Below, piece after piece: positions 9,452-45,940 of a DNA stretch of 64,000 nucleotides; position 1 is the first letter of the stretch; the number at the start of each line of letters is the position of its first letter. The notes beneath the pieces are model-generated. The model was not told the origin of the DNA. It saw nothing but the letters and a program-made list of their open reading frames with translations, and ran no database searches. Origin of the DNA: Faecalicatena sp. Marseille-Q4148 (lineage in GTDB: Bacteria > Bacillota > Clostridia > Lachnospirales > Lachnospiraceae); the NCBI GenBank assembly GCA_018228665.1, contig CP073692.1, positions 1,810,046 through 1,874,045 of the forward strand. The letters are read 5' to 3'. A program made the position numbers and the translations under genes.

Positions 9452-10146
9452 CGTTCCAACCCTCTTTTATGAGATGAGACCTCCTGTGTTGAAACCACCG
9501 TCTTTGCTCTTTTGAGTTTTTCCCGCAAGGTGGTCTTTTCCAGCTTATCAAGATATTCCTCCAGATTTCCGGCTGTCGCATGATAGCTGCGTTTGAAGCG
9601 TTCCCGTTTTAGAATCATCATCAGCTCCGGCTCATTTTCCGGCAGATAAGTCATTGTTTTAGGGGCTCCATGCTCTGGCATAAACCGGTTCATAAGCTGT
9701 CTCCGTTCCTGATAGGGAATCGTGATAACATTTCCATCCGCAAATGCAACGGCTACATTTCCGATTGGACAGGTCAGCTTTTTCATCCGTTCCACATGTT
9801 CTCTATAATTTAGCGGATAGAGATTGCCAAATATTTTTCCGTCCCTGACTTCTTTCAAAGAGATGGCATAAGCCAAAACGGGATCATTTGTCTGTTCCTG
9901 GTAAAACCGCCACACTTTATTTTCATGGCTTCCATCCAGATAAACTTCCCGTTCGCGCAGGGTATAGGTTCCGCAAGGGCGTGACATCCAAAGAAGCTGT
10001 TTATCCTCTGAACGGTCTGACACAGCCAGTTTTGAAATCAGTTCCTTATCCAGGTCAAAGTCCTCTTTATAATGTTGGGTATGAAGATCTACGATACGGG
10101 AAAGAGCACCCAAAAGATCTACATCCTCAAATCTTACCCCGGCCAT
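9448..10146 (-). CDS. Conserved ICE protein with C-terminal shared motif
   Basis: A 232-residue soluble protein of unknown function, recognisable only as part of this ICE type. It is rich in charged residues, with no signal peptide or membrane segment. The C-terminal 29 residues begin KTTLREKLKRAK and form one of ten examples of a shared tail motif (here with Thr in place of Ser; DNA 9514-9537). It ends -GLER. It overlaps mobC by four bases and its start abuts the stop of the 306-residue protein, so it lies in the mob operon. Confidence 0.7.
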   Translation of the reverse strand: MAGVRFEDVDLLGALSRIVDLHTQHYKEDFDLDKELISKLAVSDRSEDKQLLWMSRPCGTYTLREREVYLDGSHENKVWRFYQEQTNDPVLAYAISLKEVRDGKIFGNLYPLNYREHVERMKKLTCPIGNVAVAFADGNVITIPYQERRQLMNRFMPEHGAPKTMTYLPENEPELMMILKRERFKRSYHATAGNLEEYLDKLEKTTLREKLKRAKTVVSTQEVSSHKRGLER

Positions 10147-11066
10147 CAGCGTTCCCTTTCCGGCACAGGAGGGATCATCTGCCTTGCTTCATGCTCCGGT
10201 TTGTCTGCTTTCAAACGGTCCATCAAAGACGGCTTTGCTTCCGGCACCAGCTCCCGGATTTCTTCATCCGTCTGTCCGTCTGTCAGATCCGGGCGCACAG
10301 GAGGTTCGTTGTTCAGCCTGCCATCCAGCATATTGTAGTTCCCGGTTTGTCCTTCCTCATAAAGTTCCGCATTGCGAAGATAACTTTCCGGCGCCTGAAA
10401 CGGCTGTCCGGCAAACAGGATTTCTCTTTGGGTGGTAAACTGTGCAAGGACCCCATTTTGCAGTCTCGCAAATTCTTCATACTGGCGCAAGGTAAGCCCT
10501 CGTTCCAACATTTCCGTCTGGGTATGCGCCCAGCCTTCTCCATAAAGAAAATAATACATATCGGGCTGATCACAGACAAAACACAGGGAACCGTCCTGAT
10601 TGTCATAGTAAGATGGCTGCATATCCTGATAATGGCAGCGTTCCTCACGCCCCAAATATACACGGTTGTCTGCACCCAGCATAGCGACCATGCCTGCGTA
10701 ATTACTATGAACCGCAGAGCGGATTTCTACCAGCGGATCTGTTTGAGAAGGAATCTGTCTGCCCGGAATCTCATTTTGTTTTTCCGCTGCATCATTTCTT
10801 GGTGTCACTTCTTCATGGCTGCGTGCATCCAGCTCCGGTTGAGATGTTCCTTTCCGAACAGCACCGGGTTCCGGTTCTTTTTCTTTCACATAGTATCGGA
10901 CATTTGCCGTCGTATGCTCGTTGGCTTCCTTTGCATAGTTTTCAGCATCGGCTTTGCTATCAAATTCCAACGGTTTTCCATTTTCCTTGCACCAGCTTTG
11001 TGCTGGTCCGAAAATAGAAGTGCTGCTTCGTACCGCCCATACACCATAGGTCAGTTTCTTTTCCAT
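10146..11066 (-). CDS. Accessory ICE protein (DUF4316-like) with shared tail motif
   Basis: A 306-residue protein. The first 65 residues (KKLTYGVWAVRSSTSIFGPA ... FDSKADAENYAKEAN) look like a small self-contained domain, followed by a disordered linker. The middle holds an acidic globular part. The tail contains EAKPSLMDRLKADKPE, the clearest example of the shared C-terminal motif (DNA 10212-10235), and it ends -PERER. The combination of several small domains and linkers is typical of polyvalent accessory proteins in conjugative elements. The domain name is from memory and uncertain; function unknown. Confidence 0.65.
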   Translation of the reverse strand: MEKKLTYGVWAVRSSTSIFGPAQSWCKENGKPLEFDSKADAENYAKEANEHTTANVRYYVKEKEPEPGAVRKGTSQPELDARSHEEVTPRNDAAEKQNEIPGRQIPSQTDPLVEIRSAVHSNYAGMVAMLGADNRVYLGREERCHYQDMQPSYYDNQDGSLCFVCDQPDMYYFLYGEGWAHTQTEMLERGLTLRQYEEFARLQNGVLAQFTTQREILFAGQPFQAPESYLRNAELYEEGQTGNYNMLDGRLNNEPPVRPDLTDGQTDEEIRELVPEAKPSLMDRLKADKPEHEARQMIPPVPERER

Positions 11067-11079
11067 TCCGCATCCCTCC

Positions 11080-11712
11080 TTATCGTTCCTGCTGTTTGGA
11101 AGTTTGTTGCTTTTTTACCGGGTCTACCAGTTTTGTTGCTTTTAGCTGCTGGCGGAGAGAATTCTTATGCTCCGGTTCGGAATCTGTGATGTTGACATAT
11201 TCGCCAATGATACAGAGCGCTTCTCCATAACTGCCGGAAGCAAATACCCGATCAGACATTTCTTTTGCCTGTTCTTTCAGACCATGCTCCCGCAAAGTAC
11301 GAGAAGCAATACCCAGCAGATTAAAAATGTTCCCATCTGCTCCGATCAGTGGACAATCCGGTTTATCTGCCAACGCTCCCGGTGTTTCTATAAATCCGCC
11401 TAAATAATTCGGCCCAAAGCCCGACAGCCATGTGCCACCATAGACTTCATGGGTCTGTAAACGCCACAGGGCAAGTTTTCCTATATCCAGTTTCACATCA
11501 TCAAACGGGTAAAGCAAACAGGTCAGTTCGCCGTGCTGAAAAGTGGCCACATTCTCAAACTGACTGCCATCTTTCAATATGCCTGCATTTGTCAGCATTT
11601 CATTGATCCCATCCACCCATTCTGTCAGATCCCCGCCACAGCCCTGTAAAATCAGTCCTTCCTTATCGGTCATACGACGAAGATCCTCTGCGGTAATCGT
11701 GTTGATATTCAA
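11080..11712 (-). CDS. Conserved ICE protein with C-terminal shared motif
   Basis: A 210-residue soluble protein I cannot assign. A globular domain spans about residues 1-165 (for example GGDLTEWVDGINEMLTNAGI, GTWLSGFGPNYLGGF), followed by a basic tail with HKNSLRQQLKATKL (DNA 11143-11166) ending KQQTSKQQER. The tail is another instance of the shared motif. It sits just downstream (in transcription order) of the candidate oriT region and 13 bases before the 306-residue gene. Confidence 0.65.
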   Translation of the reverse strand: MNINTITAEDLRRMTDKEGLILQGCGGDLTEWVDGINEMLTNAGILKDGSQFENVATFQHGELTCLLYPFDDVKLDIGKLALWRLQTHEVYGGTWLSGFGPNYLGGFIETPGALADKPDCPLIGADGNIFNLLGIASRTLREHGLKEQAKEMSDRVFASGSYGEALCIIGEYVNITDSEPEHKNSLRQQLKATKLVDPVKKQQTSKQQER

Positions 11713-11739
11713 AAAATCGCCTCCTATCGTTTTTGTTAA

Positions 11740-11864: not shown

Positions 11865-11865
11865 A

Positions 11866-12234: not shown

Positions 12235-12239
12235 AACGC

Positions 12240-12623
12240 CTACCTTTCCGGGGCTCTGCTTTGCCGACCGCTGGAAATTTCGGTTGTATCAGTAACATTC
12301 CTAGGCTGTGAAAGGGCATCGGCGATAGAGTTCCGCTTTTTCTGTTTTGGTTCATGGTAAATAAAAAGTTCATTTTTTCCTGGTACATACAACAATCCAT
12401 TTTCTTCGCAGCGGAAAATATCACATTCTTTGTCTGTTGAAACGGTATAAAAGTCTTTGTAATCATAAGGTGCTTTTTGCCGATCCTGATAGGTACACAG
12501 CCCTAAGTTGGGGTCACTTGCCAGCCGTTTCGATATGGCGAAAAAGTCGACTTCTTTTTTGTGAAATTTTCGTATGGGCGTGAAGTGATAACCGCCATAT
12601 TCAAAGGTTTTTCGATCGCTCAT
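12240..12623 (-). CDS. Small ICE protein with shared tail motif
   Basis: A 127-residue protein of unknown function. The first 90 residues form a compact domain (FEYGGYHFTPIRKFHKKEVD ... DFYTVSTDKECDIFRCEENG). The tail contains KKRNSIADALSQ (DNA 12312-12335) and ends -RAPER, matching the shared C-terminal motif with Asn in place of Pro. Its start overlaps the topB stop by four bases. Confidence 0.6.
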   Translation of the reverse strand: MSDRKTFEYGGYHFTPIRKFHKKEVDFFAISKRLASDPNLGLCTYQDRQKAPYDYKDFYTVSTDKECDIFRCEENGLLYVPGKNELFIYHEPKQKKRNSIADALSQPRNVTDTTEISSGRQSRAPER

Positions 12624-14728: not shown

Positions 14729-14731
14729 TTT

Positions 14732-14857: not shown

Positions 14858-14922
14858 AAGCATTCCTCCTAAAAATGGGTAAAGAAAAACGCCCACTTCA
14901 AAGTGAGCGCATCAACAGGTAT

Positions 14923-16015: not shown

Positions 16016-16429
16016 CTATTCGCCGGTACTGCCAAAGCTGCCGGTTCCTCGTTCTGTTCCCAGATCGGTTACAAAATCCGCAATGACGATCGGCGTGATC
16101 ACAAGCTGCCCGATACGGGCTCCCTTAAAAAGAGACTGCGCCTGATTGCTTACATTGCTGATGATCGCATGGATCTCTCCACGGTAGCCGGAATCCACAG
16201 GTGGCAGTTCACAGACCAGACCTTTTACCGCCATACTGGTACGGGGAAAGATATATCCCGCATACCCATCCGGTATTTCCAGTCCAAAACCAAGAGGAAT
16301 TTTGGCGATTTCTCCGGGCTGTAAGGTGCAGTCATAGGGCAGATAAACATCTGCTCCGGCATCATTGCCATGCGGACGGTAAGGACGCTGGTGCTCCGGT
16401 ACGCCAAAGTCAATCAGTTTTATTTTCAT
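16016..16429 (-). CDS. dut: Deoxyuridine 5'-triphosphate nucleotidohydrolase (dUTPase)
   Basis: Hydrolyses dUTP to dUMP. All five trimeric-dUTPase motifs are visible in about 137 residues: DAGADVYLP (1), PRTSMAVKG (2), PPVDSGYRGEI (3), RIGQLVITPI (4) and RGTGSFGSTG (5). The ATG at 16429 is preferred because it overlaps the thyX stop (ATGA) and gives the usual MKIKLIDFG start. Directly downstream of thyX, it supplies dUMP for that enzyme, so the pair forms a small dTMP-supply unit on the mobile element. Confidence 0.93.
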   Translation of the reverse strand: MKIKLIDFGVPEHQRPYRPHGNDAGADVYLPYDCTLQPGEIAKIPLGFGLEIPDGYAGYIFPRTSMAVKGLVCELPPVDSGYRGEIHAIISNVSNQAQSLFKGARIGQLVITPIVIADFVTDLGTERGTGSFGSTGE

Positions 16430-17193
16430 CGGCAGCCTCCTTCCCAAAGAGCAGGATAGTCTTTTTCTAAAATATCCTCCGGCGTCATATCTGCCTCCAA
16501 TTTTCGCCCGCAGGTCATTTTACCTTCCAGACATCGATCCATCTGACAAAAAGGCCCGGTCAGTGATGGGGCAAACAAAGCAGGGCTTAGTTCATAAAGT
16601 TCTTTCCAGACCTTTAGCAGCACAATCCTTGTTTCATCAGTATTTCTCCGGCATACCCGCTGGCTGATGATATGTTTCCACTGATAAGGGGTGGCGCTGA
16701 TGAGCAGTACATTCCGTAATCCCTGGGGCGTGGCATAGCCGGCCGCATCGTGCCCGCTTCCGGCAGTGCACAGGGCTTCATAACATTTCATGCTTTCATG
16801 ACAGCTTTTTAAGTACAATTCCCGTACCACTGCCGGAGCCGTCATAATAGAATACGGGACAGCGAAATCCGCCTGTCCCGTATAGTTGCTGTACTGCAGC
16901 GATGCACTCATAAATTTTACTTCGTTCTGGTGGCGGGTGATCTGCGCCAGAAAACGCCTGCTGGCGCCGACAATGGCTACCGTGATCACCGCAAATTTCT
17001 GGATGGTAGGATGGGGAAGCGCCCCCATAGCTGCTACTGTCTGAACGCTGAATGATTTTTCGTAGAGCTCCATCAGGTCGTCCATTGAGGCAATCTTATG
17101 TCCCTGTTGGGTAAGCCTTGCCGCAAAGACCATGTTTTTTTCTGCTTCCGCTACCGCCTGGCAGTTCAAAATTTTTACTTCGATTCGTTTAAT
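16426..17193 (-). CDS. thyX: ThyX-like flavin-dependent thymidylate synthase (divergent)
   Basis: Expected to methylate dUMP to dTMP using FAD and methylene-tetrahydrofolate. Family features are the N-terminal VKILNCQ strand, ARLTQQG, a central ITRHQNEVKFMSASLQYSNY where classical ThyX has RHRxxSxNExSxRY, and ISQRVCRRNTDETRIV near the C-terminus. The central signature is clearly degenerate (RHQ instead of RHR). An obvious TTG at 17169 has no ribosome site and drops the first beta strand. I prefer the ATT codon at 17191-17193, eight bases after GGAGGG and overlapping the upstream TAA. It is followed by dut. Function is likely but should be regarded as unproven because of the altered signature. 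Confidence 0.75.
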   Translation of the reverse strand: MKRIEVKILNCQAVAEAEKNMVFAARLTQQGHKIASMDDLMELYEKSFSVQTVAAMGALPHPTIQKFAVITVAIVGASRRFLAQITRHQNEVKFMSASLQYSNYTGQADFAVPYSIMTAPAVVRELYLKSCHESMKCYEALCTAGSGHDAAGYATPQGLRNVLLISATPYQWKHIISQRVCRRNTDETRIVLLKVWKELYELSPALFAPSLTGPFCQMDRCLEGKMTCGRKLEADMTPEDILEKDYPALWEGGCR

Positions 17194-17506
17194 TGGTATG
17201 TCCCTCCTTTACAATCGCTTTCAGTAAGAACAGATAGTTCAGACTGTCTGTGATCTTTTCGTCCCATGTGTCCATCGGGTAAACCGTTTCCTCGGCAAAG
17301 CACATATCGTACAGAGAAACAATATGCTTTGCCAGCATACCGGCAAGGGCACGCTGGGGCGTTGTGTGCTGTAAAGCTGCCGCTGCCTTAAATGCACCCA
17401 GCCGGTCCGGGTCATCCCCGGTGTATTCTTTGGTTTTCCGTTTCAAGGTATCAGCACAGAGCCGCACCTGTTCGTCAAAAACGGCATTGACTTCATTTTG
17501 CGTAAT
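17189..17506 (-). CDS. Phage-type nucleotide-modification-associated protein (DUF1599-like)
   Basis: About 105 residues. KRKTKEYTGDDPDRLGAFKA, TPQRALAGMLAKHIVSLYDM and WDEKITDSLNYLFLLKAI match the pattern of small phage/ICE proteins associated with nucleotide modification. An open frame continues upstream to a TTG at 17569, but that extension is just the perfect hairpin 17535-17566. AGGAGGG (17514-17520) lies seven bases before an ATT codon (17504-17506), giving ITQNEVNAVFDEQ, which I take as the true start. It overlaps thyX by five bases under the starts chosen here. The exact role is unknown. Confidence 0.6.
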   Translation of the reverse strand: MTQNEVNAVFDEQVRLCADTLKRKTKEYTGDDPDRLGAFKAAAALQHTTPQRALAGMLAKHIVSLYDMCFAEETVYPMDTWDEKITDSLNYLFLLKAIVKEGHTN

Positions 17507-17519
17507 ATAGCATCCCTCC

Positions 17520-17566
17520 TTTGAAAACAAGAAACCGGCTATTCTAAAGCATCTTAGAATAGCCGG
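17520..17566 (-). terminator. Perfect hairpin after abiEii
   Basis: Arms CCGGCTATTCTAA and TTAGAATAGCCGG form a 13-base-pair stem with a six-base loop, followed by TTTCTTGTTTTC on the minus strand. It probably terminates or attenuates transcription between the AbiE operon and the thyX module. Confidence 0.75.
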
Positions 17567-17589
17567 CAAATAAATGGATATGTAATTGT

Positions 17590-18588
17590 TTATAGTGTAT
17601 TGATCTCTTTTTCCAGTTCCTGGACCGCTGCTATGACTGTCTCAAATGTCGGAACATCCCCATACAACATATCCTGCATAGAGTTATAGTCCGCTTCCAA
17701 TGCTGCAAACCGATATTCCGGCGGGAGTAATTTTAATGTGCCCGGCACAGCCTCCGGGTACTTCGCCCATGATCTGGGATAGAATTTCATTTTGAAATCT
17801 ACAACTTTCTTCAGGAGGTCAAGCCTGGAAAAAGCAGCTTCTTTAACCGGTGTTGCAGCCATGCGGTAGAGATCATAATAATGTCTGGAATACCGCTGCG
17901 GCATTTCCAAATGTTCCGGTCTGTTCGCTTCATGGTGCAGGATTGTGGCTTTTTCCCAGAAGGTCCGTTCCGGGGCAACGGTAAGGATTGCGGTTTCTTT
18001 TTGCTCAAAAATCTTCGGATAATATTTTGCCGCGTATGGTTCGATCAGCGCTGTTTTTGCAGGAGTCCACGCTGCCAGCGCACCAATCTCTAAACGGATC
18101 ACCTGTAAAGTCGCCGTATTCGTAAAAAGGTGCGGATAGGCGAAAATGACCGTCTGTTTATCCTTTTCATCTATGTAGACATTTGCTTCACAACCGATTT
18201 CCTGGGATAAGCCGGCTTTGACTGCCGGGCAGAATGTTTCGGACAGAAATACCTCTGCACGCACATTGGCTTCTTTGTTAAAAGCATCCTGTTTTGTATT
18301 GGAACGTTTCTCCCATGGTTCATCTTTGCCATATCCCAATACACGCCAGTCCAGAATCAAATCAATATCTTCTGAAAACCGGCTGATCAGGTGAAAGGCT
18401 TTTGAAAGGCTGGTACCACCCTTAAAGGTGATGGACTCTTTCCATGGTGAGCGGTGAAATAAATAATCCAGCGTAAAACATACCCAAAAGTCTTTTTCCA
18501 CGATGGCATCATTCAGCCCCATTTTATCTGCTGTATTTCTGAACAGCTCCCTGCGGTCGTTATCTGAAAGTCTTGCTATATTTCTCAT
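17590..18588 (-). CDS. abiEii: AbiEii-type nucleotidyltransferase toxin
   Basis: Toxin of a type IV abortive-infection/toxin-antitoxin pair; the family transfers nucleotides to RNA acceptors. In 332 residues the nucleotidyltransferase core has the GGTSLSKAF motif (about residues 57-65) and the catalytic acidic SEDIDLIL (about 73-80). These are followed by the AbiEii helical C-terminal region (VAPERTFWEKATILHHEA, SRHYYDLYRMA). Length is normal. Its start overlaps the antitoxin stop by four bases, as expected for a coupled pair. Confidence 0.92.
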   Translation of the reverse strand: MRNIARLSDNDRRELFRNTADKMGLNDAIVEKDFWVCFTLDYLFHRSPWKESITFKGGTSLSKAFHLISRFSEDIDLILDWRVLGYGKDEPWEKRSNTKQDAFNKEANVRAEVFLSETFCPAVKAGLSQEIGCEANVYIDEKDKQTVIFAYPHLFTNTATLQVIRLEIGALAAWTPAKTALIEPYAAKYYPKIFEQKETAILTVAPERTFWEKATILHHEANRPEHLEMPQRYSRHYYDLYRMAATPVKEAAFSRLDLLKKVVDFKMKFYPRSWAKYPEAVPGTLKLLPPEYRFAALEADYNSMQDMLYGDVPTFETVIAAVQELEKEINTL

Positions 18589-19202
18589 TGTACCTTTTCA
18601 CCTCCACAAATCTGCCGTATCGTATCGTAAACCCAATCCGTAGACTCGGTTGCTTCCTTCAAACAAGCCTGTTTATCCTTGTCTGTCAGTTTTTCGGAAA
18701 GCATCTGTATGACTTCTGGCGTAACATTCGATCTGCCAAGCGTTTTTAATGCCTGTATAACCAAACTTGTCATATAGGACAATCCGGTAATCTCCTTATT
18801 GGTCCGGTGCTTAAATTCCAGCTTTGTAGAGTTCCACTCGTAGGTCTTATATGGACCATCGCTGATATAGGACCATACTGCTGTTACCTGTGTTGAAAGA
18901 CCTAACAGGTTCAATGCTGTATTCCCACATGGGGCAATCGTCCAGTGATAACTTCGTGCCAATGCGTTCGCCACCGCTTCCGGGTCTGCCGCCACATATT
19001 CATCCAGAAGTTTGCTATATTTTGGTTTTTCATAAACTCCTTTCAAAATACGGCGCAATGTTCCTGATTGCACTAAACGGCTTAAACTTTGACGAATAGT
19101 GGATGTATCTGCAATATCCGCAAAATCAGACATCACAAAAACAGTTCCATCTTCAAGAGAAAGAACACGCTCTCGTATTCGTTTTGTATATCCGTTGTCC
19201 AC
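18585..19202 (-). CDS. abiEi: AbiEi-type antitoxin / transcriptional repressor
   Basis: Antitoxin partner with an N-terminal winged-helix domain (VFVMSDFADIADTSTIRQSL, LVQSGTLRRILKGVYE) and the AbiEi antitoxin domain behind it. The GTG at 19202 is chosen because GGGAGG lies close upstream; an ATG 18 bases earlier precedes the ribosome site. The family represses its own promoter by binding inverted repeats, and such repeats are visible directly upstream (19219-19250 and 19353-19384). About 205 residues, overlapping abiEii by four bases. Confidence 0.88.
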   Translation of the reverse strand: MDNGYTKRIRERVLSLEDGTVFVMSDFADIADTSTIRQSLSRLVQSGTLRRILKGVYEKPKYSKLLDEYVAADPEAVANALARSYHWTIAPCGNTALNLLGLSTQVTAVWSYISDGPYKTYEWNSTKLEFKHRTNKEITGLSYMTSLVIQALKTLGRSNVTPEVIQMLSEKLTDKDKQACLKEATESTDWVYDTIRQICGGEKVQ

Positions 19203-19218
19203 AATACCGCCTCCCTTC

Positions 19219-19258
19219 ATGTCACGAATATTATATATTATTCGTGACATGATTGCAA
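19219..19258 (-). promoter_or_regulatory. abiE promoter with operator 1
   Basis: A 32-base perfect palindrome (ATGTCACGAAT / ATTCGTGACAT arms around an AT centre, 19219-19250) contains a perfect -10 TATAAT on the minus strand (19230-19235). A -35-like TTGCAA lies at 19253-19258 with 17-base spacing. Binding of a repressor to this site would block RNA polymerase. The AbiEi antitoxin is the obvious candidate. Confidence 0.82.
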
Positions 19259-19352
19259 TAGGTCCTATTCCTCTTATTTTGAGTGTTCCCATTAAAAATC
19301 TGATTTATACATCAAAAATCAAAAATTTTGCAAGGCAGTACAGTTTTCATAT

Positions 19353-36381: not shown

Positions 36382-37245
36382 CTATCTTGCATTAAATATG
36401 GATTTGGATAACGAACCTGTCTTAAACAGGGCAAAAGCCAGCAGTACCGTATAACCCGCCGTTCCCCAGATCGCGCCGTGCACGTCGCCGGACGATGGGA
36501 TAGACTGGACCAGCACTGCATAAATGGCAACACAGATCAGAATCAAAAAACCCTGAAAACCCAGGGCAAAAAGGGAACGCAGATACCCGGTTCCCATTTG
36601 TCCCCATTCCCGGTTTGCCATTGTGGAAAACGGGATCGGTGCAAGGCTCACGGTTAAATAAATCTCGATCATACGGCCATATACAATGACAAAGATCACG
36701 ATGGACAGTACCCACATACACAGATTGATGATGTTGGTTTCCAGCCACAGTCCAATCAGTTCCCACATTCCCATTGCTTCAAGCTGGGTTTCCAGATCAG
36801 ACAACGCCGCCTGCACATCCAGGTTCCCGTTTATGACACCGGCACTTTGCGACACCACATTTTGGGCCACATCAAAGACCGCCATCACAATCGTAAAACA
36901 GTTGGTGAGCAGGTAAGTGGCAACAAAAGTCTTGAAAATCCACTTGAAGATGTTGAATGTATCGAATTCGTGCATGTTGTTCTTTTCGAGAATCATCTGG
37001 ATCAGTTCATACACCAGAACAAAGGTCAGGATCATGCCCGCAATGGGAATGACGACAGTTTCCGAAAGATTTTGGATCATGGAAAATACGCCGCCATTCC
37101 AGCCCTGCGGGGTCTGTCCTACTTGATTTGCCACATCCGCAACCTGATTGTTGACGGAGTTGAAAATGCTGGTGTACTGTCCGGTGATCGCATCGATCAA
37201 GCCCTCTTTAATCCAGTCTGTTATCCGTTCAAACAGACTGCCCAT
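36382..37245 (-). CDS. VirB6/TrbL-like T4SS channel protein
   Basis: A 287-residue polytopic membrane protein with a soluble N-terminus (MGSLFERITDWIKEGLIDAI) and at least five or six helices (for example VVIPIAGMILTFVLVYELI, NLCMWVLSIVIFVIVYGRMI, FLILICVAIYAVLVQSI). It contains the conserved VSLAPIPFSTM segment of TrbL/VirB6 proteins. It lies between the Maff2 pilin-like gene and SpoVG, the normal order of Tn1549-type T4SS operons. Forms the inner-membrane channel. Confidence 0.9.
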   Translation of the reverse strand: MGSLFERITDWIKEGLIDAITGQYTSIFNSVNNQVADVANQVGQTPQGWNGGVFSMIQNLSETVVIPIAGMILTFVLVYELIQMILEKNNMHEFDTFNIFKWIFKTFVATYLLTNCFTIVMAVFDVAQNVVSQSAGVINGNLDVQAALSDLETQLEAMGMWELIGLWLETNIINLCMWVLSIVIFVIVYGRMIEIYLTVSLAPIPFSTMANREWGQMGTGYLRSLFALGFQGFLILICVAIYAVLVQSIPSSGDVHGAIWGTAGYTVLLAFALFKTGSLSKSIFNAR

Positions 37246-37716: not shown

Positions 37717-39561
37717 CTATAAAGTCTGGGAAGCCAGATCTTCGGCTGTGACTTCATAATTGCGGTATCGTTCACCGGGACGCATCGGCATCCGGGTAGA
37801 AAGAAACTTTTCGATATTAAAAGCGTTCTTCTCATTAAAATCGGAAAGCAGTTTGTAATTTGGGTGTTTGGTTATATCGTATTTCCGGGAGAGGAACGGC
37901 CGCACACCCCTGATCTGCAGCAGACATTTGCCCCCGTCCATAACTGCCAGTTCATCCACCGACATCAGATCCTTTCCCAGCTTTTGAAAATTTTGTCCGT
38001 GGGATTCCTGATTGCCCTTTGTGACACTGGTGTTATACAGGTCGATGGTCTCTTTCCCCAATAGGGAGTTCCAGCTTTTTAAGGTGGTTTCTTCTTTGCC
38101 TCCTAAGAAAAGAGAGGCGTCACAGTTACCGATGACGGTGTCCATGTTGTCTTTATACAGGGCTTTGAGCTGGCTTTGCGCCTGCAGCACCAGGCAGGCA
38201 GAGATCTCACGGCTTCGGATGGTCGCCATAAGACGCTCCAGGTTCGGGATCTGCCCGATATTTGCCGCCTCGTCGATCAGGCAGCGTACATGGATGGGAA
38301 GCCTTCCGCCATATATATCATCTGCCCGTTCGCACAAGCGGTTAAACAAAATGGAATAGATCAGACTGATCAAAAATGCAAAGGTCCCGTCCGTATCACT
38401 CATAATAAGGAAAAGAGCAGTCCGTTCATCCCCCAGCATATCCAGATCCAGTTCGTCATACATGGTAATTTCCCTGACTTCTTTAATGTCAAAAGGAGCC
38501 AGTCTGGAAGCACAGGAAATAAGGATCGACTTTGCTGTTTTTCCGGCAGCGAGCTTATATTTCTTATATTGACGCAGGGCAAAATGATCCGGGTCTTTTT
38601 GTTCCAGCGCGTCAAAGAGAAGGTCAACGGCATTTTTGAACGATTCATCATCCTCACGGACCTCCATTGCGTTCAGCATTTCTACCAGTGTGGCAAAATT
38701 CTGTTCGTTTGCCGGGGCTTCATAGTAGATATATCCGATCAGTGCCGTATAGAGCAGGGTTTCTGCTTTGACCCAGAAATCGTCTCCGGCTTTTCCTTCG
38801 CCTTTGGTATTGGAGATCAGAGTCGTGACGATTTTCAAAATATCTTTCTCGGAATGAATGTAGGCGAATGGGTTAAAGTGCATACTTTTCTGAAAATTGA
38901 TCGTATTGAATACCCGTATTTTATAGGGCTCATAGATGATCTTTCCTTTTTCATTCCGCACAGGCTTTCCGTCCTTGTCCAGCTTTGGCGTGCCTCGCTG
39001 TAACATCTTTCCGCATTCCACAAGGACTGTACCTTTCGGATCGGTGACGACGTAGGAACTGTGCATTTGCATCAGATTGGGCTTGATGAAAAAGCGCGTT
39101 TTTCCAGAACCTGATCCTCCGACTACCAGTACATTTTTATTTCTTGCATTGGCCGGATTTTTGGGCCTTCCGTTTAACATCAGTCCTTCACTTTGGGTAA
39201 GAATGATATTGTTTTCCGGCTTTGGGTCCATAAACGGGGCAATATCGGCTTTATTTCCCCAACGAGCTGAACCGTATTCCACATTTTTGCGGTATTTCTT
39301 AGCGTCTTTCCCTCTAAGATAGACTGCCAGCCGCATAATGGCTGCACCGCATAAACCGATCAGCCAGTCCATTGCCGCCCCCGGCCACATACTCTGAAAC
39401 GCAAGGGCAAAGCCTTCGGACAGTCCTAACAGCTTTTGGGAAGCGTCCGCTCCGGGAGCCAGACGCACCGCCTCGCCCAGCTTGGCAAATACCAGAAGGA
39501 ACAGAACATAAGGCAGATGGAGAATGACCTGTTTTTTCATTGTTTCTGCATCGATCTTCAT
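37717..39561 (-). CDS. VirD4/TraG-type coupling ATPase (CD1115 family)
   Basis: Docks the relaxosome to the secretion channel. 614 residues: N-terminal membrane helices (ILHLPYVLFLLVFAKLGEAV, WLIGLCGAAIMRLAVYL), Walker A GGSGSGKTRFF (about 150), the TraG/TraD motif YVVTDPKGTVLVECG, and Walker B RCLIDEAANIG (about 428) with SQLKALYKDNMDTVIGNCD. It is full length. Its start overlaps pcfB by four bases, the usual gene order, and PcfB is a known partner in related conjugation systems. Confidence 0.94.
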   Translation of the reverse strand: MKIDAETMKKQVILHLPYVLFLLVFAKLGEAVRLAPGADASQKLLGLSEGFALAFQSMWPGAAMDWLIGLCGAAIMRLAVYLRGKDAKKYRKNVEYGSARWGNKADIAPFMDPKPENNIILTQSEGLMLNGRPKNPANARNKNVLVVGGSGSGKTRFFIKPNLMQMHSSYVVTDPKGTVLVECGKMLQRGTPKLDKDGKPVRNEKGKIIYEPYKIRVFNTINFQKSMHFNPFAYIHSEKDILKIVTTLISNTKGEGKAGDDFWVKAETLLYTALIGYIYYEAPANEQNFATLVEMLNAMEVREDDESFKNAVDLLFDALEQKDPDHFALRQYKKYKLAAGKTAKSILISCASRLAPFDIKEVREITMYDELDLDMLGDERTALFLIMSDTDGTFAFLISLIYSILFNRLCERADDIYGGRLPIHVRCLIDEAANIGQIPNLERLMATIRSREISACLVLQAQSQLKALYKDNMDTVIGNCDASLFLGGKEETTLKSWNSLLGKETIDLYNTSVTKGNQESHGQNFQKLGKDLMSVDELAVMDGGKCLLQIRGVRPFLSRKYDITKHPNYKLLSDFNEKNAFNIEKFLSTRMPMRPGERYRNYEVTAEDLASQTL

Positions 39562-40034
39562 CGTTCCGGTCCTCCGTGTTCTTTGTTCTTTACACGGTCA
39601 CGGCCAAGCGACTGCGCCAGTTCTTTGAACTTATGAAGCTGTGTAAGCAGCGACGGTCTGGTGCTGCGTGTAAGGTCTTTCTTTGTATATTCCTTAAATG
39701 CTGCCGTCAGTGCATCCGCCTGGTTTGCCTTGAAATATACCGTCCATTTTGGGGGATCGGTCCCAAGTTCCTTTTCTATATGGTAGCGTACCTGATGTTT
39801 CCTGACATACCGTTCAAAAGAGCGGATTCGTCCTGAAACTTCAATGGTATTAGCTCCGGGGTCTTTATAAGTCAGCCGCTTCATACTGTTGCGTCCGACT
39901 CTTGGCATTGTACGTTCCTGTTCCATCTTTTGGAGTACCGCAGCAATAGCCGCACGCAGTACCCGCCCTGACAGTTTTGCTGCCTGTATAGAAACAGAAA
40001 CCGTTCGTTGTTCGAGATCTTCCTGCAAGAGCAT
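39558..40034 (-). CDS. pcfB: PcfB-family (DUF3801) substrate receptor accessory protein
   Basis: A 158-residue protein beginning LQEDLEQRTVSVSIQAAKLS, with the family motif VLQKMEQERTMPRVGRNSM. A central beta domain follows (GRIRSFERYVRKHQVRYHIE ... WTVYFKANQADALTAAFKEY). In the Enterococcus pCF10 system PcfB works with the coupling protein. The tail STRPSLLTQLHKFKELAQ (DNA 39636-39659) is an excellent match to the motif shared with nine other ICE proteins, and it ends -GGPER. The motif in a coupling-complex component is a useful clue to its meaning. Confidence 0.88.
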   Translation of the reverse strand: MLLQEDLEQRTVSVSIQAAKLSGRVLRAAIAAVLQKMEQERTMPRVGRNSMKRLTYKDPGANTIEVSGRIRSFERYVRKHQVRYHIEKELGTDPPKWTVYFKANQADALTAAFKEYTKKDLTRSTRPSLLTQLHKFKELAQSLGRDRVKNKEHGGPER

Positions 40035-40079: not shown

Positions 40080-40895
40080 TTACCGGCTTTCCCCAAGAAC
40101 CTGCTGTCGGGAAGCGTGTTCAAAGGCTTTTGCTGCCTGATCGACCTGAATTTTAGCGTGTTTCAAAAGCGTCTTGATGATCGTAGCCGGGCGTTCCTGT
40201 TCCTCCAGATGATCGACCATCCCTTTGCACTCATCCGGGAGGTATTCAGCCATATCTTTCAACACATCGGAAAAGTTACCCATAAAGCCCCAGCAGCTAT
40301 CCGACAGCTCCCCGTTTTTATAAAGCTCAAACCCATAACATTCGCCGCGCAGATAGGAATCGTAAGCAGCGACTTCGCTGCGCATCAGTGCGTCTGCTTT
40401 CTGACGGATAGCACCGGTCATCTTGTCAGCGTCAAATTCCTTTAGGGCATATTCTTTGGAAACATAGATCCAGCCGACCTGTCCGCTGTCACATTCTGCA
40501 TGAGGAGCCCTGCCTGAGAAACTTTCTGTACTCATGGCAAGACCGGAGTGGTCGTAGAGATAGAGGGGGAGCATCAGATACTTTTCCGAAATTACTTTCT
40601 GCATTGCTTCATCGATCGCCCGTTCCTCTGTCTTTGGTCCATGCCGGAAACGGCTGCTTACAATGTTTACCATCCGTTCATAGCGTTTCATGCCAGCTTC
40701 ATCATGTCCTACGGTATCTAAATACATTTCCCGCAGGAAGTCGTCTTTGTCCATATAGTTGTGATGGTCGCCCAGCGCATAGCGGGGATGGAAGCATACC
40801 ATCGTCCCAAAATGTTCATCTACCTCACGGGGAGAGATCAGAATATCGTCCGGCTGCACCATAAGGGCATAAGGTTCATTTACTGCCATTAACAT
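40080..40895 (-). CDS. Conserved ICE protein of unknown function
   Basis: A 271-residue soluble protein. N-terminal part: YALMVQPDDILISPREVDEH, CFHPRYALGDHHNYMDKDDF. Middle: CDSGQVGWIYVSKEYALKEF and LRGECYGFELYKNGELSDSC. Helical C-terminus ending -LGESR. The middle resembles plasmid-encoded proteins of unknown function that sit with antirestriction genes, but I cannot name a family. The shared tail motif is not present in its usual form. Confidence 0.6.
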   Translation of the reverse strand: MLMAVNEPYALMVQPDDILISPREVDEHFGTMVCFHPRYALGDHHNYMDKDDFLREMYLDTVGHDEAGMKRYERMVNIVSSRFRHGPKTEERAIDEAMQKVISEKYLMLPLYLYDHSGLAMSTESFSGRAPHAECDSGQVGWIYVSKEYALKEFDADKMTGAIRQKADALMRSEVAAYDSYLRGECYGFELYKNGELSDSCWGFMGNFSDVLKDMAEYLPDECKGMVDHLEEQERPATIIKTLLKHAKIQVDQAAKAFEHASRQQVLGESR

Positions 40896-40912
40896 AATTG
40901 GCTCCTTTCTTT

Positions 40913-41329
40913 CTACAAATCCGGGCCGGAATGGTGCATCATCGGTTTTTCCCGGTGTTCATTGGTTGCAGGCTGCTTGACTGCAATGATCTCGCCGGCA
41001 ATCCTTGCAAATTTTTCAGGGTACTTGAACTGCTCCCCGTATTTCTCCATCAAGTCCGGGGAAAGGTCTGTAAAATCTTCCTCACCAAGACCAACGATCA
41101 GAAAATTCCCGGACACAATATCATAGATGTGGCCGTCATCGTCAAAGAGAGCTCGGTTCAGAGGCAGCCCCATCAGCTTGCCTTCTTCATTACAGATCAG
41201 AGCCACCGGGTCCTCATACGGATAGACCGCTTGAATATCTCCGCCCACTGCCGCCTGCAAGGATTTCAGACCACTTTCGATCTCCGCAGCATAAGGGGAC
41301 TTGCCCGGCTCTACCATTAACACTTTCAT
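40913..41329 (-). CDS. DUF3846-type ICE protein
   Basis: A 138-residue protein with the DUF3846 pattern: MKVLMVEPGKSPYAAEIESG, LQAAVGGDIQAVYPYEDPVA, CNEEGKLMGLPLNRALFDDD, ISGNF-like VSGNFLIVG. This small domain is widespread in phages, plasmids and ICEs, often near antirestriction genes; function unknown. It overlaps the next gene upstream by four bases. Confidence 0.85.
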   Translation of the reverse strand: MKVLMVEPGKSPYAAEIESGLKSLQAAVGGDIQAVYPYEDPVALICNEEGKLMGLPLNRALFDDDGHIYDIVSGNFLIVGLGEEDFTDLSPDLMEKYGEQFKYPEKFARIAGEIIAVKQPATNEHREKPMMHHSGPDL

Positions 41330-42168
41330 AATTGTATATCCTCCTTCTTTTTCATTGCCGTACCGGGAGCGGTTGGCGTTTTTTCCTGAGTTTTTGCCAC
41401 AGAGAGCTTCCCCAGGACGGAAGGCTTCTCCCGGTTTTTGGGTGTAAAAATACCGCCCTCCGAAACCTCGGCGGCGGCATGTTCCGTTTTGGCCTGTTCC
41501 AGTCCTTCAACCGTATAGCCAGGTAAAAGAGTGCCGTGAACCATAAAATGGTGCTCATATTCTTTCGGGATCGGCGGGGAAATTTCCGTGAATAAATGGG
41601 AATAGGCTTTCTTTCGCCCGTCCAGATATTTTATGGCTGCGTTCTTATCTGTATATCGTTTCTGGTTTTGTCCGGCAATCTTTGCTCCATATCCCTGCTT
41701 CGGGGAATGAATACGGACTTCCCATGTCACATACCAGGCAATCGGAACACTCTGTTTGGTTTCCCGGTCATATTTCGTATCTTCCCAAATACTGCAGGTC
41801 ATCTGATAGACCCGGTTGCTGATTTTCTGATCTGCCCTCCAGTTATCGGTGTCTTTCCACTGGTTGCCTGTATGTTCGATCTCCGGTGTACGAAGATATT
41901 CCAAAGCCCGGTTGATCGTCTGTGTTGCCGCTGCCTGCTGTTCCCACTGTTTTGCGGCAGCCACCACGATTTCATAGGCTTTCTGCTCCCCGTCGATACT
42001 TCCCTGGCGCATGGCTTCCAGGCTATCTGTTCCCATTGTGATCAGTGTAGAAATATCCACATTTTCACAAACTACGCTGTGCTCAATTTTAAGCTCTGAT
42101 CCCGGCGTCAAGTGGTCGCCATACCGGTAGGCATGGTAATCCCTGTTTTCTTCCAAAATGCTGTTCAC
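41326..42168 (-). CDS. Conserved ICE protein with shared tail motif
   Basis: A 280-residue soluble protein. The first 230 residues are two small domains (ENRDYHAYRYGDHLTPGSEL; QMTCSIWEDTKYDRETKQSV ... WYVTWEVRIHSPKQG), followed by a disordered tail with REKPSVLGKLSVAKTQEK (DNA 41404-41427). Ends -EDIQL. This is the multidomain-plus-tail layout seen in polyvalent accessory proteins of conjugative elements. I do not recognise the domains. Confidence 0.6.
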   Translation of the reverse strand: MNSILEENRDYHAYRYGDHLTPGSELKIEHSVVCENVDISTLITMGTDSLEAMRQGSIDGEQKAYEIVVAAAKQWEQQAAATQTINRALEYLRTPEIEHTGNQWKDTDNWRADQKISNRVYQMTCSIWEDTKYDRETKQSVPIAWYVTWEVRIHSPKQGYGAKIAGQNQKRYTDKNAAIKYLDGRKKAYSHLFTEISPPIPKEYEHHFMVHGTLLPGYTVEGLEQAKTEHAAAEVSEGGIFTPKNREKPSVLGKLSVAKTQEKTPTAPGTAMKKKEDIQL

Positions 42169-42174
42169 CTCCTG

Positions 42175-44205
42175 CTATATTTCCGGCTCATGGTTTTTTC
42201 TGGAAACCGTCTGTGCCGGTGATTTTTTATCTGCCGGTCTGTTTGCCGCAAGCTGATCCATCACGGAAGGACGGCCGACGCCGAACATGGATAGCTGACC
42301 GTCCGCTGCCTCACGAAGTTCAGAAACAGAGAGGGGAAACGTTACATCGGCATGGGTCAATAGCTGTTCCCGTTTCAAATCCTGAATGATCTCGTCAAAA
42401 ACAGCGTTGATCGCACGGCGTTCTTCCCCCACAGGGAAGGCTTTCAATACCTCCATTTCTCCGTCTTTACCGGAAACCAGGGTAAGGGCACAGTCGGCAT
42501 GGCCTGCCAGATAATCCGATGTGTAGGGCAGTTTGTCCTTGATATAACAGGCAAAGGCTCTGGCTGTCATTTCCACATTGCTGTCCCAATAACCGCCGTC
42601 TTTTTCACATTCTTTTCCCATGCGTACCGAATTACGGTAAAAATCAGTTTCCGTCCGTCCAATCTGCGGAGCTTCCTGCGCCTGCATCCCGGAAAGCATA
42701 CGCTCAAAAATTTCCAGCCGTTCCCGTTCACTTTTGGGAATTACCCGGCCGGTAACATTCTTCTTAAATGCGCTGATCTGTTCCACAGAGCCGGGTTCGC
42801 CGGACAAAAATGCTTCCCGCAAGACTGCGTAGGTTTCCATCTGTTCCTTATTGCCATACCGTTTCAGAGAGGCAAGAACCGAGGAATCCAGCCAGCTTGC
42901 CGCATTTTTCCGGGTGCGTTCTGTTTGTGCTTCCGTGCGCTTTGCTGCCTGTTCCGGTGTTTCCGGTTTATACTTCATGGTGTCAATGAGTTTTTGGAAC
43001 GGCGCATAGAGGCGGGGCTGTTCTGACAGCATCCCTTTTGTGCCCATCTTTGTACCAAGATAATCGTCAAGTCCATGCCACCATTCATGTGCCAGGGAAC
43101 CGGCCCCGTGCATTTTCGTAAGATTGATGACTGTACGCAAAGGTTCATAATGAGCCGCAGCATTGCCGCTGCCTCTTGCACCAAAAGCGATAGCAAGCGT
43201 ACCCTGATAAGCAATATCTTTATCGCTGATCTTAAGGGCTGACGCCAGATCCTTTAGTGCTTCAAATCCCATGTTAAGGGAGGTCTGACGGTCGTTCTGG
43301 TTCATCCAGTTTCCAAACTCGCCGCCGCGGAACCCAAATGTATCAAGATAATGCTGTCCGGTGATCTCCACACCATTCCGGTAATCCGGCCCAGTACGTT
43401 TGACATGGGCGAGCTGGGGAGGGACAAACCGGATCTTTCCGTTTTTGTTCCTGCCTTTGGCAAGTTCCTGCACCCATTTCAGGGCAGCTTCTTTGGTCTC
43501 AAAATTGGTCCGCAGGATCGAATAGCCTTTTGTCACATAGTAGGTACCGGGGTTCCAGTCCTCATTTTTAGAATAGGTATGTTTCCCGTCGTTGAAGTGG
43601 ATCGCATAACCTTTCGGTATTTTCTGCTCTTTGTAAACACAAAACTGTTCCTTTTTTGCTTTCTGAGTAAAGTTGCGCTCAAAATATTCAGCCGAGCGAA
43701 TCAGCATGGTATTGGACAATTTGTTTGTGATCACGGGATTGTCCTGACCCTTTTTCGTTGCCCGGTAGTGGATTCCGCTTCCCCAGCCCCAGCCCTGTAC
43801 TTTTTCTAAATATCCATTGTCAACGAAAAAGCGGTCATAGGCTTTCGCAGCATCCTCCACAGTACGGACATCTGAAAGCACTGTCTGCAATTCCCGGACT
43901 GTTTTTATATATTCCTTTTGTCTCGCGGTCCGTTTTTCCGGGGTGTCATCCGTGCGGTAATACTGAGGGGAAGCGTTTAAGCCGTCCCTCGCTTTTTTGA
44001 TAAAATAGACCACGCCAAGAGGAATCCCTTCCTCCAGCATGACTGCATAGTCCGGCTTTTTCCAGACATTATCCTTTTTCACAAATTTTTCGGCTTCGCG
44101 CTCATTCATGGCTTCCAGATCATCCGCATACAGCCCGCGGTCTTTCCACAGGTCTTTTTTCGCACCGCCGATCTTTTCACCGAAATCTTCATGCACTCCT
44201 GCCAA
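42175..44205 (-). CDS. Large polyvalent protein with zincin-like metallopeptidase domain
   Basis: A 676-residue cytoplasmic protein. A zincin-type HExxH-like motif is visible as LAHEWWHGLDDYLG (about residues 373-386) inside the LPD1-like region that begins RFVPPQLAHVKRTGPDYRNG. A helical region follows, and a further conserved block MTARAFACYIKDKLPYTSDY. The tail GRPSVMDQLAANRPADKK (DNA 42250-42273) carries the shared C-terminal motif. Polyvalent proteins with metallopeptidase domains are thought to enter the recipient with the DNA and counter host defences. The peptidase activity itself is not proven. Confidence 0.75.
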   Translation of the reverse strand: MAGVHEDFGEKIGGAKKDLWKDRGLYADDLEAMNEREAEKFVKKDNVWKKPDYAVMLEEGIPLGVVYFIKKARDGLNASPQYYRTDDTPEKRTARQKEYIKTVRELQTVLSDVRTVEDAAKAYDRFFVDNGYLEKVQGWGWGSGIHYRATKKGQDNPVITNKLSNTMLIRSAEYFERNFTQKAKKEQFCVYKEQKIPKGYAIHFNDGKHTYSKNEDWNPGTYYVTKGYSILRTNFETKEAALKWVQELAKGRNKNGKIRFVPPQLAHVKRTGPDYRNGVEITGQHYLDTFGFRGGEFGNWMNQNDRQTSLNMGFEALKDLASALKISDKDIAYQGTLAIAFGARGSGNAAAHYEPLRTVINLTKMHGAGSLAHEWWHGLDDYLGTKMGTKGMLSEQPRLYAPFQKLIDTMKYKPETPEQAAKRTEAQTERTRKNAASWLDSSVLASLKRYGNKEQMETYAVLREAFLSGEPGSVEQISAFKKNVTGRVIPKSERERLEIFERMLSGMQAQEAPQIGRTETDFYRNSVRMGKECEKDGGYWDSNVEMTARAFACYIKDKLPYTSDYLAGHADCALTLVSGKDGEMEVLKAFPVGEERRAINAVFDEIIQDLKREQLLTHADVTFPLSVSELREAADGQLSMFGVGRPSVMDQLAANRPADKKSPAQTVSRKNHEPEI

Positions 44206-44235
44206 TCTTCATCACCTCCAGTCAGTGTAAAATTC

Positions 44236-45138
44236 TTATCGTTCCGGGGCAGGGCGGCGTTCTTCGTCTTTGTGAAGTTGTGGGAGGTTTCCTGTGAGCC
44301 GGTCGGTTTCCCTGCGGATCAGTTTGTCCAAAGCGCCTAAATCCTTCGGTGCAATGGCAAACTCCCGGTAATTTTCATACCACAAGCCCGTAGAGACTGC
44401 TGCGATGGGCGCAATTTTCTCCGAACCGGCTGGAAGAAGCCGATACACAGGGGCTTCGTCATAAAGAAGCATCTGTTTTGCCGTTCCCTGTGGTATGCGG
44501 TACTTATCCATATCCGGGTTCTGGGCTGCCTCCATATATTGCATATTCAGGCGTTCTTCTAAATCCTGGGGCATATAACGAAATGCCTGATCCATCCACT
44601 GTCTGAACATCGTGGAATAGTGGTACTGCCATTCCGTAACTTGATTCGTGGCATAAGAAAATCCCCAGCTTTTCAGAGCATCTTTTTCGTAAAGCTCCAT
44701 TTCAGTCCATTCTTTCAGGCTGACCGTGGCCGCTGAACCATCTTTGCGTTCGATATTGACGCCGCAAGGATAGAGGATATTTCTTTTTATATCCTGCCGT
44801 AGCGTGTCTAAATCCATCATCAGGACATCCCCGTACAAGTGACCGCCCTCGCTGCGATCCGTATGAAACAGGAAAGCCCTCGCTCCGATGAACTCCGTTG
44901 TTGAGATCATTTGATGAAGGTCCGCCGTAGAACAATAAGCAAACAAGGTGTCGGAAAGCCACATGTGATTTTTCCCCATGATAGCAATGGAATCAGCCCC
45001 GGTATTTGTCACCAGAGAACGCATATTAAATTCGCATTCCCTAAGAAAATCTCCGGCAAAAATATGGAGCTCATACGCAAAGACGGATAAGTCTGTATCA
45101 CGGATCAAATGAATCTGCGGTAGTGGTTCCTGATTCAA
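44236..45138 (-). CDS. Conserved ICE protein (DUF5688-like)
   Basis: A 300-residue soluble protein. The region LIRDTDLSVFAYELHIFAGD ... ADSIAIMGKNHMWLSDTLFA is one domain. A C-terminal domain with APVYRLLPAGSEKIAPIAAV and TGLWYENYREFAIAPKDLGA resembles the end of DUF5688-type proteins common in Lachnospiraceae. It ends -RRPAPER. Function unknown. It sits in the leading block of accessory genes between the zincin protein and the 256-residue helical protein. Confidence 0.55.
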   Translation of the reverse strand: MNQEPLPQIHLIRDTDLSVFAYELHIFAGDFLRECEFNMRSLVTNTGADSIAIMGKNHMWLSDTLFAYCSTADLHQMISTTEFIGARAFLFHTDRSEGGHLYGDVLMMDLDTLRQDIKRNILYPCGVNIERKDGSAATVSLKEWTEMELYEKDALKSWGFSYATNQVTEWQYHYSTMFRQWMDQAFRYMPQDLEERLNMQYMEAAQNPDMDKYRIPQGTAKQMLLYDEAPVYRLLPAGSEKIAPIAAVSTGLWYENYREFAIAPKDLGALDKLIRRETDRLTGNLPQLHKDEERRPAPER

Positions 45139-45169
45139 TCAAATTCCTCCTTTCATGTGAACCTGACAA

Positions 45170-45940
45170 TTACCGGCTTTCCTTATCATGGGAAGGTGCC
45201 GGCTGCTTTTTTGCCGGTTCCGTTTTTGCTACCTGTTCCCGCATTGCTTCCAAAACAGAAGGGCGCCTTTCCGTAGTCTGTTCCAACCGGGCAAGGGTAT
45301 TAAGTGCCCACTCCGCATTACGGTTAATGGAGGATATAAGGGCGCCCTCCACTTTGAAAGCACCTTTGAACACTCTGGCAATCTTCCCATTTTCTTTTGC
45401 GTCTGTCTCCGCAGGTTTTCCTTGAAGGGTACGGCCCATATTTTTGAAATGCCGCCCCATTTCGTGGTATTCCGTACTGAAAGCATCAATTCTGGCAACA
45501 GCCCTGTTGCTGGCCTGCATACTTTTTTCTGCTGCACTTTGAATGGACTCCAACACCGGTCTGACATGTAAAAACTGTGTGATCCCATTCAAAGCGACAG
45601 TACCGCGTTCCCTGAAATCGGCAAGGATATTCCTGCACCCGTTTATGATCTGGCCTTTGAGTTCGGAAAGACGGTGACGCATAACGGAAATATTCGCCTC
45701 CATAGCTGTATAGCTCTTTTGGAGAGCATCTTTCAGAGAATGGTTCTGTAATCCCTGCATTTCCTGACGCACTGCCTTTAATTCCTCGGTTGCCTCCAAA
45801 AGACGCTGCTCCATCCCGGTCACATGCTCGATCAGCTTGGAAAATTCTTCATATCCCGGTGTGTTGTTGTCTTTTAGGAGAGCAAGCAGTTCTTTGACCT
45901 GCTCATTTTCCGCAATCGGCTGGCTATCTGTCTCCGTCAT
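45170..45940 (-). CDS. Helical ICE protein (DUF6674-like) with shared tail motif
   Basis: A 256-residue mostly coiled-coil protein (MEQRLLEATEELKAVRQEMQ; SAAEKSMQASNRAVARIDAF) with one hydrophobic-poor central domain. The tail ERRPSVLEAMREQVAKTEP (DNA 45242-45265), ending -HDKESR, is one of the best matches to the shared C-terminal motif. It starts three bases after the HTH gene stop region, so they are probably co-translated. Function unknown. Confidence 0.65.
   Translation of the reverse strand: MTETDSQPIAENEQVKELLALLKDNNTPGYEEFSKLIEHVTGMEQRLLEATEELKAVRQEMQGLQNHSLKDALQKSYTAMEANISVMRHRLSELKGQIINGCRNILADFRERGTVALNGITQFLHVRPVLESIQSAAEKSMQASNRAVARIDAFSTEYHEMGRHFKNMGRTLQGKPAETDAKENGKIARVFKGAFKVEGALISSINRNAEWALNTLARLEQTTERRPSVLEAMREQVAKTEPAKKQPAPSHDKESR

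Follow-up and report, generated by a model that had tools for sequence, protein, structure and literature searches.

Why should ten proteins of unrelated sequence, encoded by a single integrative and conjugative element, share one short motif at nearly the same distance from their C-termini? The question is raised by a 64,000-nucleotide stretch of Faecalicatena sp. Marseille-Q4148 (contig CP073692.1, positions 1,810,046 to 1,874,045; the whole stretch is referred to here as the window). It contains a Tn1549/CTn2-like element, in which genes for VirD4, VirB4, a VirB6-like protein, PcfB, an M23/NlpC peptidase and CD1107-like proteins occur together (Pfam) and whose gene order matches that of Tn1549 of pMG2200. 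The tail that bears the motif exists, is conserved, is confined to elements in the samples taken and is common to some relaxases; our analysis suggests, with a probability of roughly 65%, that the VirD4 coupling protein of Tn1549/CTn2-like elements recognises it as a C-terminal signal for docking and translocation. All ten octapeptides reported in the initial annotation of this DNA were recovered, each translated from the minus strand, and the 28-33 residues from motif start to stop also held in all ten open frames. The pattern proposed for them, [KR][PN]S[VIL]xxx[LM], applies strictly to eight of the ten, while KTTLREKL and AVSVLARL match a looser form only. The tails, from octapeptide to last residues, are as follows.

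9448-9537, minus strand: tail KTTLREKL..KRGLER (loose match), on the protein at 9448-10146 (232 aa, no Pfam family)
10146-10235, minus strand: tail KPSLMDRL..PERER, on the DUF4316 protein at 10146-11066 (306 aa)
11080-11166, minus strand: tail KNSLRQQL..KQQER, on the 210-aa protein at 11080-11712
12240-12335, minus strand: tail RNSIADAL..RAPER, on the 127-aa protein at 12240-12623
34591-34686, minus strand: tail AVSVLARL..DFGAR (loose match), on the protein at 34591-35337 (DUF3848 below cut-off)
35891-35986, minus strand: tail KPSLTGAL..NEQAR, on the SpoVG-domain protein at 35891-36343
39558-39659, minus strand: tail RPSLLTQL..GGPER, on PcfB (DUF3801) at 39558-40034
41326-41427, minus strand: tail KPSVLGKL..EDIQL, on the LPD34 polyvalent protein at 41326-42168
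42175-42273, minus strand: tail RPSVMDQL..HEPEI, on the LPD1 polyvalent protein at 42175-44205, which its HEWWH (by eye) marks as zincin-like
45170-45265, minus strand: tail RPSVLEAM..DKESR, on the DUF6674 protein at 45170-45940

Chance does not account for this recurrence. Permuting the last 60 residues of each of 48 minus-strand window proteins, chosen by us, over 20,000 rounds never gave the eight strict motifs that these proteins carry at -28 to -33 (shuffle mean 0.0037), nor the 11 that match the looser xx[ST][VIL]xxx[LM] (shuffle mean 0.69). The carriers had been described as unrelated, and their Pfam bodies do differ: DUF4316, SpoVG, DUF3801/PcfB, LPD34, LPD1 and DUF6674 were found above cut-off and DUF3848 below it, and Pfam gave no family for the three further carriers. 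A recent duplication of tail DNA was ruled out, as the ten tails show a mean nucleotide identity of 0.31 (maximum 0.44) and have no 12-mer in common; they are thus not recent copies of one another.

Alignment showed that the tail consists of two conserved blocks, namely PSVxxxL at about -31 and a basic run at the carboxyl end that usually closes with [EQSA]-[RLI], joined by a variable linker of low complexity. The PSVxxxL motif by itself is an incomplete signal, and this second half at the extreme C-terminus, the proteins that carry it alone and the connection to relaxases all go beyond the initial annotation. The last 30 residues have a mean net charge of +3.4 in 129 distinct tails, compared to +0.6 in 314 chromosomal proteins. 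In PcfB, P127 and S128 are two of ten residues that are invariant across 22 PcfB proteins sharing 29-98% identity with that of the window, and an AlphaFold2 model (mean pLDDT 76.5) shows a break at P-S followed by a helix at 129-152, with the very end at low confidence; the P-S pair would, on this model, cap the tail helix. A fold search with the PcfB model returned no match at E<=0.001. We also considered whether the tail is simply Pfam DUF4316, since in the window DUF4316 protein the family match (226-286) overlaps the motif (278-285); this was rejected, as a 1306-aa protein of Tn1549 has DUF4316 at 898-935 and the tail at its end. The variable, low-complexity linker would suit a functionless, disordered, lysine-rich stretch spread by recombination among neighbouring genes. 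That explanation, already disfavoured by the dissimilar tail DNA of neighbours, is further opposed by the invariant P127 and S128 and by a distance from the protein end that is kept despite linker drift, and we regard it as barely credible.

Several families of the element, the relaxase family treated below among them, have the terminal half alone, and three such proteins lie in the window.

40080-40895, minus strand: 271-aa protein (no Pfam) with PATIIKTL 36 residues from its end and the terminal half GESR
44236-45138, minus strand: 300-aa protein (no Pfam) with the terminal half alone (RRPAPER)
46496-47476, minus strand: DUF3991/Toprim primase-like protein (Pfam) with the terminal half alone (RRPKEAAVSI)

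The terminal half is present in 13 of 14 distinct ends of the 300-aa family and 18 of 19 of the DUF3991 primase-like family. In the 271-aa family 14 of 22 distinct ends fit the rule for the terminal half and none reaches 10 bits for the full tail, and in the DUF3848 cluster the corresponding counts are 7/7 and 2/7. Together with the many relaxases that have the terminal half alone, these families could point to two signals, the terminal half being a general ending of clostridial relaxases and other substrates, and PSVxxxL being a separate, element-specific module with another partner. Against this, the main carriers mostly have PSVxxxL followed by the terminal half (PcfB 45/45, LPD1 20/20 and LPD34 20/26 ends), which makes a pair of independent signals highly improbable.

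The position of the motif is also kept well beyond the window. Among the best 80 of 579 genome loci fetched with VirD4, 102 of 119 strict matches sit 30-34 residues from the protein end, although the greedy frame caller drops genes in favour of longer antisense frames and counted just five of the window's own strict motifs at 30-34 in this tally. In 22 loci from viral contigs, fetched with the zincin-like protein, the same is true of 19 of 20 strict matches. A profile built from 39 tails matched 153 of 2190 protein ends at >=12 bits (training tails being among the ends) against 0 of 5379 internal windows, and 167 ends against five internal windows at >=8 bits. In 28 non-training loci fetched by PcfB, scores of >=10 bits were reached by 24 of 485 ends and by none of 1169 internal windows of 70 residues; these 24 are mostly PcfB, which was the fetch query and is also in the training set, and four of the listed rows are other proteins. 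When protein bodies were clustered, 14 clusters had at least one tail (including one antisense artefact and one fragment), and in no fewer than 12 clusters of unrelated body the tail forms the extreme C-terminus.

Whole genomes gave a similar picture. In genome G001 (single contig, 2.86 Mb) all nine matches to a ten-tail profile at E<=1 lie within one 30-kb stretch. A relaxase of this genome with a weaker tail (L162, 8.4 bits) is missing from that list, which shows that the profile overlooks some tails. Run on four more genomes, the ten-tail profile produced 53 matches at E<=10, many of which lay scattered. Of these, 48 fall within 50 kb of a DUF3801 (PcfB-family) gene, as do 42 of 42 at E<=0.1 and 34 of the 39 that remain once the 14 PcfB matches are set aside; such neighbourhoods make up 7, 10 and 12% of the genome in three of the four. 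The five matches beyond 50 kb have E of 0.127 or more. Across 249 genomes of the phylum, eight match a 32-tail profile at E<=0.01, one of which (G129) lies off any protein end; it was treated as false, no frame ending there. DUF3801 occurs in 13 of the 249, including the other seven tail-positive genomes, a co-occurrence that is partly circular because PcfB is one of the carriers. With PcfB left aside, carriers were detected in four genomes, all four among the 13 with DUF3801 (chance 4.6e-6), a four-of-four count into which the treatment of G129 enters. A tail common to all DUF3801 elements was rejected, given that 6 of 13 such genomes have none.

The controls show where the tail is absent. 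None of 314 chromosomal proteins, taken from twenty 20-kb stretches of G001 outside its main element, has the tail at 8 bits. Three readable chromosomal SpoVG proteins (L251-L253, 90-96 aa) end before any tail, while the element SpoVG of G001, G003, G005 and G075 coincide with profile matches; wrong frames were used at several loci of this SpoVG sample. The enrichment that the initial annotation proposed to look for is present in the samples taken, with matches clustered near element protein ends, none among the 314 chromosomal proteins and those in whole genomes close to PcfB-family genes. This bears on a further explanation, that the tail targets a host factor such as a protease (as a C-degron), a localisation site or a replication protein. 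A conserved carboxyl end is the general form of end-recognised peptides and would agree with it; the lack of carriers among the 314 chromosomal proteins argues the other way, as does the tracking of DUF3801 elements by the matches, which a general host-directed signal would not need, and targeting of this kind seems quite improbable.

Within the elements, the transfer machinery also lacks the tail. Seven transfer-module families (VirD4, VirB4, VirB6-like, peptidase, Maff2-like, CD1107-like and DUF4315-like, several of them named from annotated relatives) had no tail at 10 bits in any of 180 distinct ends, including 0/58 for VirD4, 0/30 for VirB4 and 0/28 for the VirB6-like proteins. A 441-aa protein (L132) suspected of being a tailed machinery protein proved to be DUF5688. 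The corresponding window genes, with the element's own relaxase, are as follows.

37717-39561, minus strand: VirD4 coupling protein (Pfam), the proposed reader of the tail and itself without one
31968-34220, minus strand: VirB4 ATPase, N-terminal part (Pfam), its gene split by a group II intron
36382-37245, minus strand: VirB6-like protein, without tail, named by the likeness of its end to annotated relatives
7233-8651, minus strand: the element's own relaxase (PF03432, 472 aa), ending TEKSRQ

The intron divides virB4 into 31968-34220 and 28957-29172 on the minus strand (window 28957-34220) and is evidenced by Rfam matches to D1-D4-5 at 31676-31876 and Intron_gpII at 29193-29277 and by a reverse transcriptase at 29352-31106. 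Just beyond the relaxase end of the element, a TPP riboswitch (7076-7175, minus strand) precedes apparent thiamin genes (by eye). Elsewhere on the minus strand, 16426-19292 holds intermodule cargo, namely a thymidylate synthase of the Thy1 type and an AbiEii toxin whose DUF6088 partner is weakly AbiEi-like, and 19929-24839 is a 1636-aa frame in which an adhesin (thioester domain and nine SpaA stretches) is fused to a sortase domain at the C-terminus.

Among the carrier families, by comparison, the tail is present in 45/45 distinct ends of PcfB, 20/20 of LPD1, 9/9 of SpoVG, 25/26 of LPD34, 10/11 of DUF3846-YodL and 9/11 of DUF6674, and it also occurs on DUF5688, DUF3846-YodL and YodL proteins. 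PcfB, encoded next to VirD4, is the most constant carrier (63/63 cluster members), and the suggestion in the initial annotation that it might read the signal is not supported, because PcfB itself carries the tail. In the pMG2200 stretch with Tn1549, which includes some proteins of the plasmid, 24 proteins were read and three are carriers: PcfB, a 314-aa protein and the 1306-aa protein (ArdA, ArdC-N, M78 peptidase, LPD25, YodL and DUF4316). The remaining 21 lack the tail, and so do the relaxase, MobC and integrase. In genome G092 a HepT-like RNase (L131:1501-1968, minus strand) has the tail at 30 bits and lies near a NikA-like frame, while its 109-aa neighbour, nucleotidyltransferase-like by eye, is tail-less; the RNase is a possible delivered toxin.

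Some relaxases of mobilizable elements also carry the tail. Two tailed relaxases lie outside the element core, a MobA_MobL relaxase (L006:18085-19824) in an apparent mobilizable element adjoining virD4 and a Mob_Pre relaxase (L083:2026-3489) in an insertion beside the element. Under a loose two-half rule (S[VIL]xxx[LIVM] 31-42 residues from the end plus a terminal [MLIVQ]E[LIRHV]), 97 of the best 120 of 7014 MobA_MobL matches and 85 of the best 120 of 7995 Mob_Pre matches in the protein database are positive, against 0 of the 314 chromosomal proteins. A third tailed relaxase-like family, with no Pfam match and an HxDExTPHxH motif (by eye), is apparently inserted in virD4 in two non-training loci (L282 and L294; by eye). 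At L006, L143, L282 and L294 the relaxase is the sole protein of the inserted element, as delimited by eye, that scores >=8 bits; the relaxases of L144 and L145 have a weaker tail of about 4 bits. Mobilizable elements with MobQ- or MobV-like relaxases were seen in or beside virD4 at L006, L145, L273, L282 and L294, in several hosts (boundaries by eye).

These distributions are best explained by docking at the coupling protein, because relaxases, anti-restriction polyvalent proteins, SpoVG-like proteins and PcfB, unlike channel proteins, are or could be its substrates. VirD4 would read the tail, with the PSVxxxL block folding into an amphipathic helix on the receptor and the free carboxyl end occupying a second site. 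The carriers, including anti-restriction and zincin-like polyvalent proteins, SpoVG-like proteins and PcfB, might then enter the recipient with or beside the DNA, and mobilizable elements that gained the tail on their relaxases could use the VirD4 of the host element. The export or docking signal foreseen in the initial annotation stands as the best-supported reading, with the tail on mobilizable relaxases and on anti-restriction, zincin-like, SpoVG-like and HepT-like bodies but on none of the sampled channel proteins; delivery of the carriers into recipients would be its putative outcome. The wider picture is tentative, and we put it at somewhat under an even chance: a common bipartite ticket in Clostridia-like bacteria that would send anti-restriction, peptidase-like, regulatory and HepT-type toxin proteins into recipients, with at least three mobilizable relaxase families riding the same machine.

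A number of observations weigh against docking and translocation through VirD4. The relaxase of the window element has neither half by the rules used. It belongs to a cluster whose 13 other members (541-578 aa) finish in -QER or -HER; each of these fits the terminal rule and none has the full tail. Counted by distinct ends, the rule holds for 11 of 12 in this family, the sole miss being the shorter window copy. Across the phylum, 43 PF03432 frames gave no full tail and six terminal halves. The relaxase frames of this 249-genome sample come from a subset of the hits, PF03432 included; eight loci were frameless, duplicate ends were removed and some frames were wrong. As its own relaxase and the PF03432 frames lack the full tail, the DNA of the element is not obviously routed by it. 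In the same genomes MobA_MobL frames fit the terminal rule in 9 of 13 cases and have the tail at 8 bits in two, and Mob_Pre frames in 6 of 10 and one, respectively. MOBT relaxases, intended as a control, were tailed in none of six frames, which are too few (four hits over the family cut-off, one frame short). The tailed MobA_MobL and Mob_Pre sets are close relatives of just two queries, and at >=8 bits the 39-tail profile finds only 48/120 and 33/120 of them. Of 13 relaxases from named plasmids, one has the full tail at 8 bits and nine fit the terminal rule, the four misses of this rule being on plasmids of Campylobacter coli, Ruminococcus albus, E. coli and Enterococcus faecium. In addition, the terminal rule is loose and fits 16/314 chromosomal proteins and 10/26 ends of the 48456 family, carrier families can partly lose the tail, as DUF3848 has, SpoVG-repeat proteins of 209-503 aa in G001 and G005 are tail-less, and 6 of the 13 genomes with DUF3801 give no tail match at E<=0.01. 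Finally, ArdC of R388 is reported to be required on the recipient side and not by the donor (PMC7213743), which means that export is no necessity for anti-restriction proteins. As a separate observation, relaxases of small Clostridia and Brevibacillus plasmids (L308-L311, L318, L319) end in -MEL, -MSL or -MER and lack PSVxxxL.

The strongest rival is that the tail collects proteins on a donor-side hub (the relaxosome, PcfB or another adaptor) for DNA processing, the carriers not being exported. This would agree with the constancy of PcfB and its place next to virD4, and with a terminal half common to relaxases and primase-like proteins. It sits less well with the tail on PcfB itself and with its presence on relaxases of different families, whose oriT partners should differ, and zincin-like, ArdA/ArdC, SpoVG-like and HepT-like bodies have no known role in donor DNA processing. 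On balance a donor-side hub is unlikely. If the tail is instead a signal read by VirD4, the proteins entering the recipient could be predicted from sequence, and searching with it would reveal which proteins a great many gut elements export. It would also give a delivery role to many DUF and polyvalent proteins, explain how mobilizable elements hijack these conjugative elements and offer a short peptide-receptor contact for studying and blocking transfer.

Among known systems, the VirD4 elements of the Tn1549/CD1115 family (pMG2200) share the transfer module of the window element; Tn1549 has three carriers and the window element ten, extending beyond PcfB. In the open-licence literature we found no description of a sequence signal by which the conjugation machines of Gram-positive bacteria choose their protein substrates. 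The part of a 2025 review used here likewise gives none (PMC12857230). Polyvalent proteins have been proposed to be delivered along with element DNA (Iyer et al., 2017; PMC5512222), and LPD-, YodL- and ArdA/ArdC-type proteins belong both to that work and to the tail carriers; no common targeting tail is described in the part of it used here, and the tail reported here extends to other proteins and to relaxases. The pED208 F plasmid system exports the maintenance proteins ParA, ParB1, ParB2, SSB, PsiB and PsiA to recipients, and in the portion of the paper drawn on here the TraI signals are described as internal and no common C-terminal motif is named (PMC8406263). The Arg consensus of Agrobacterium is another point of comparison and was matched against our set. 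This consensus, R-x7-R-x-R-x-R, fits 1 of 129 distinct tails. Agrobacterium effectors are reported to have a C-terminal Arg motif, and Cre to be exported when it carries the final 48 residues of relaxase MobA (PMC10025392). The signals of VirF, VirE2 and MobA (C-terminal 48 aa; Vergunst, 2005), read by a VirB/D4 system, are, like the tail, C-terminal, positively charged and found on a relaxase as well as on exported proteins. Charge and place are alike in the two systems, while the tail combines a helix-start block at about -31 with a carboxyl-end block and belongs to Gram-positive elements.

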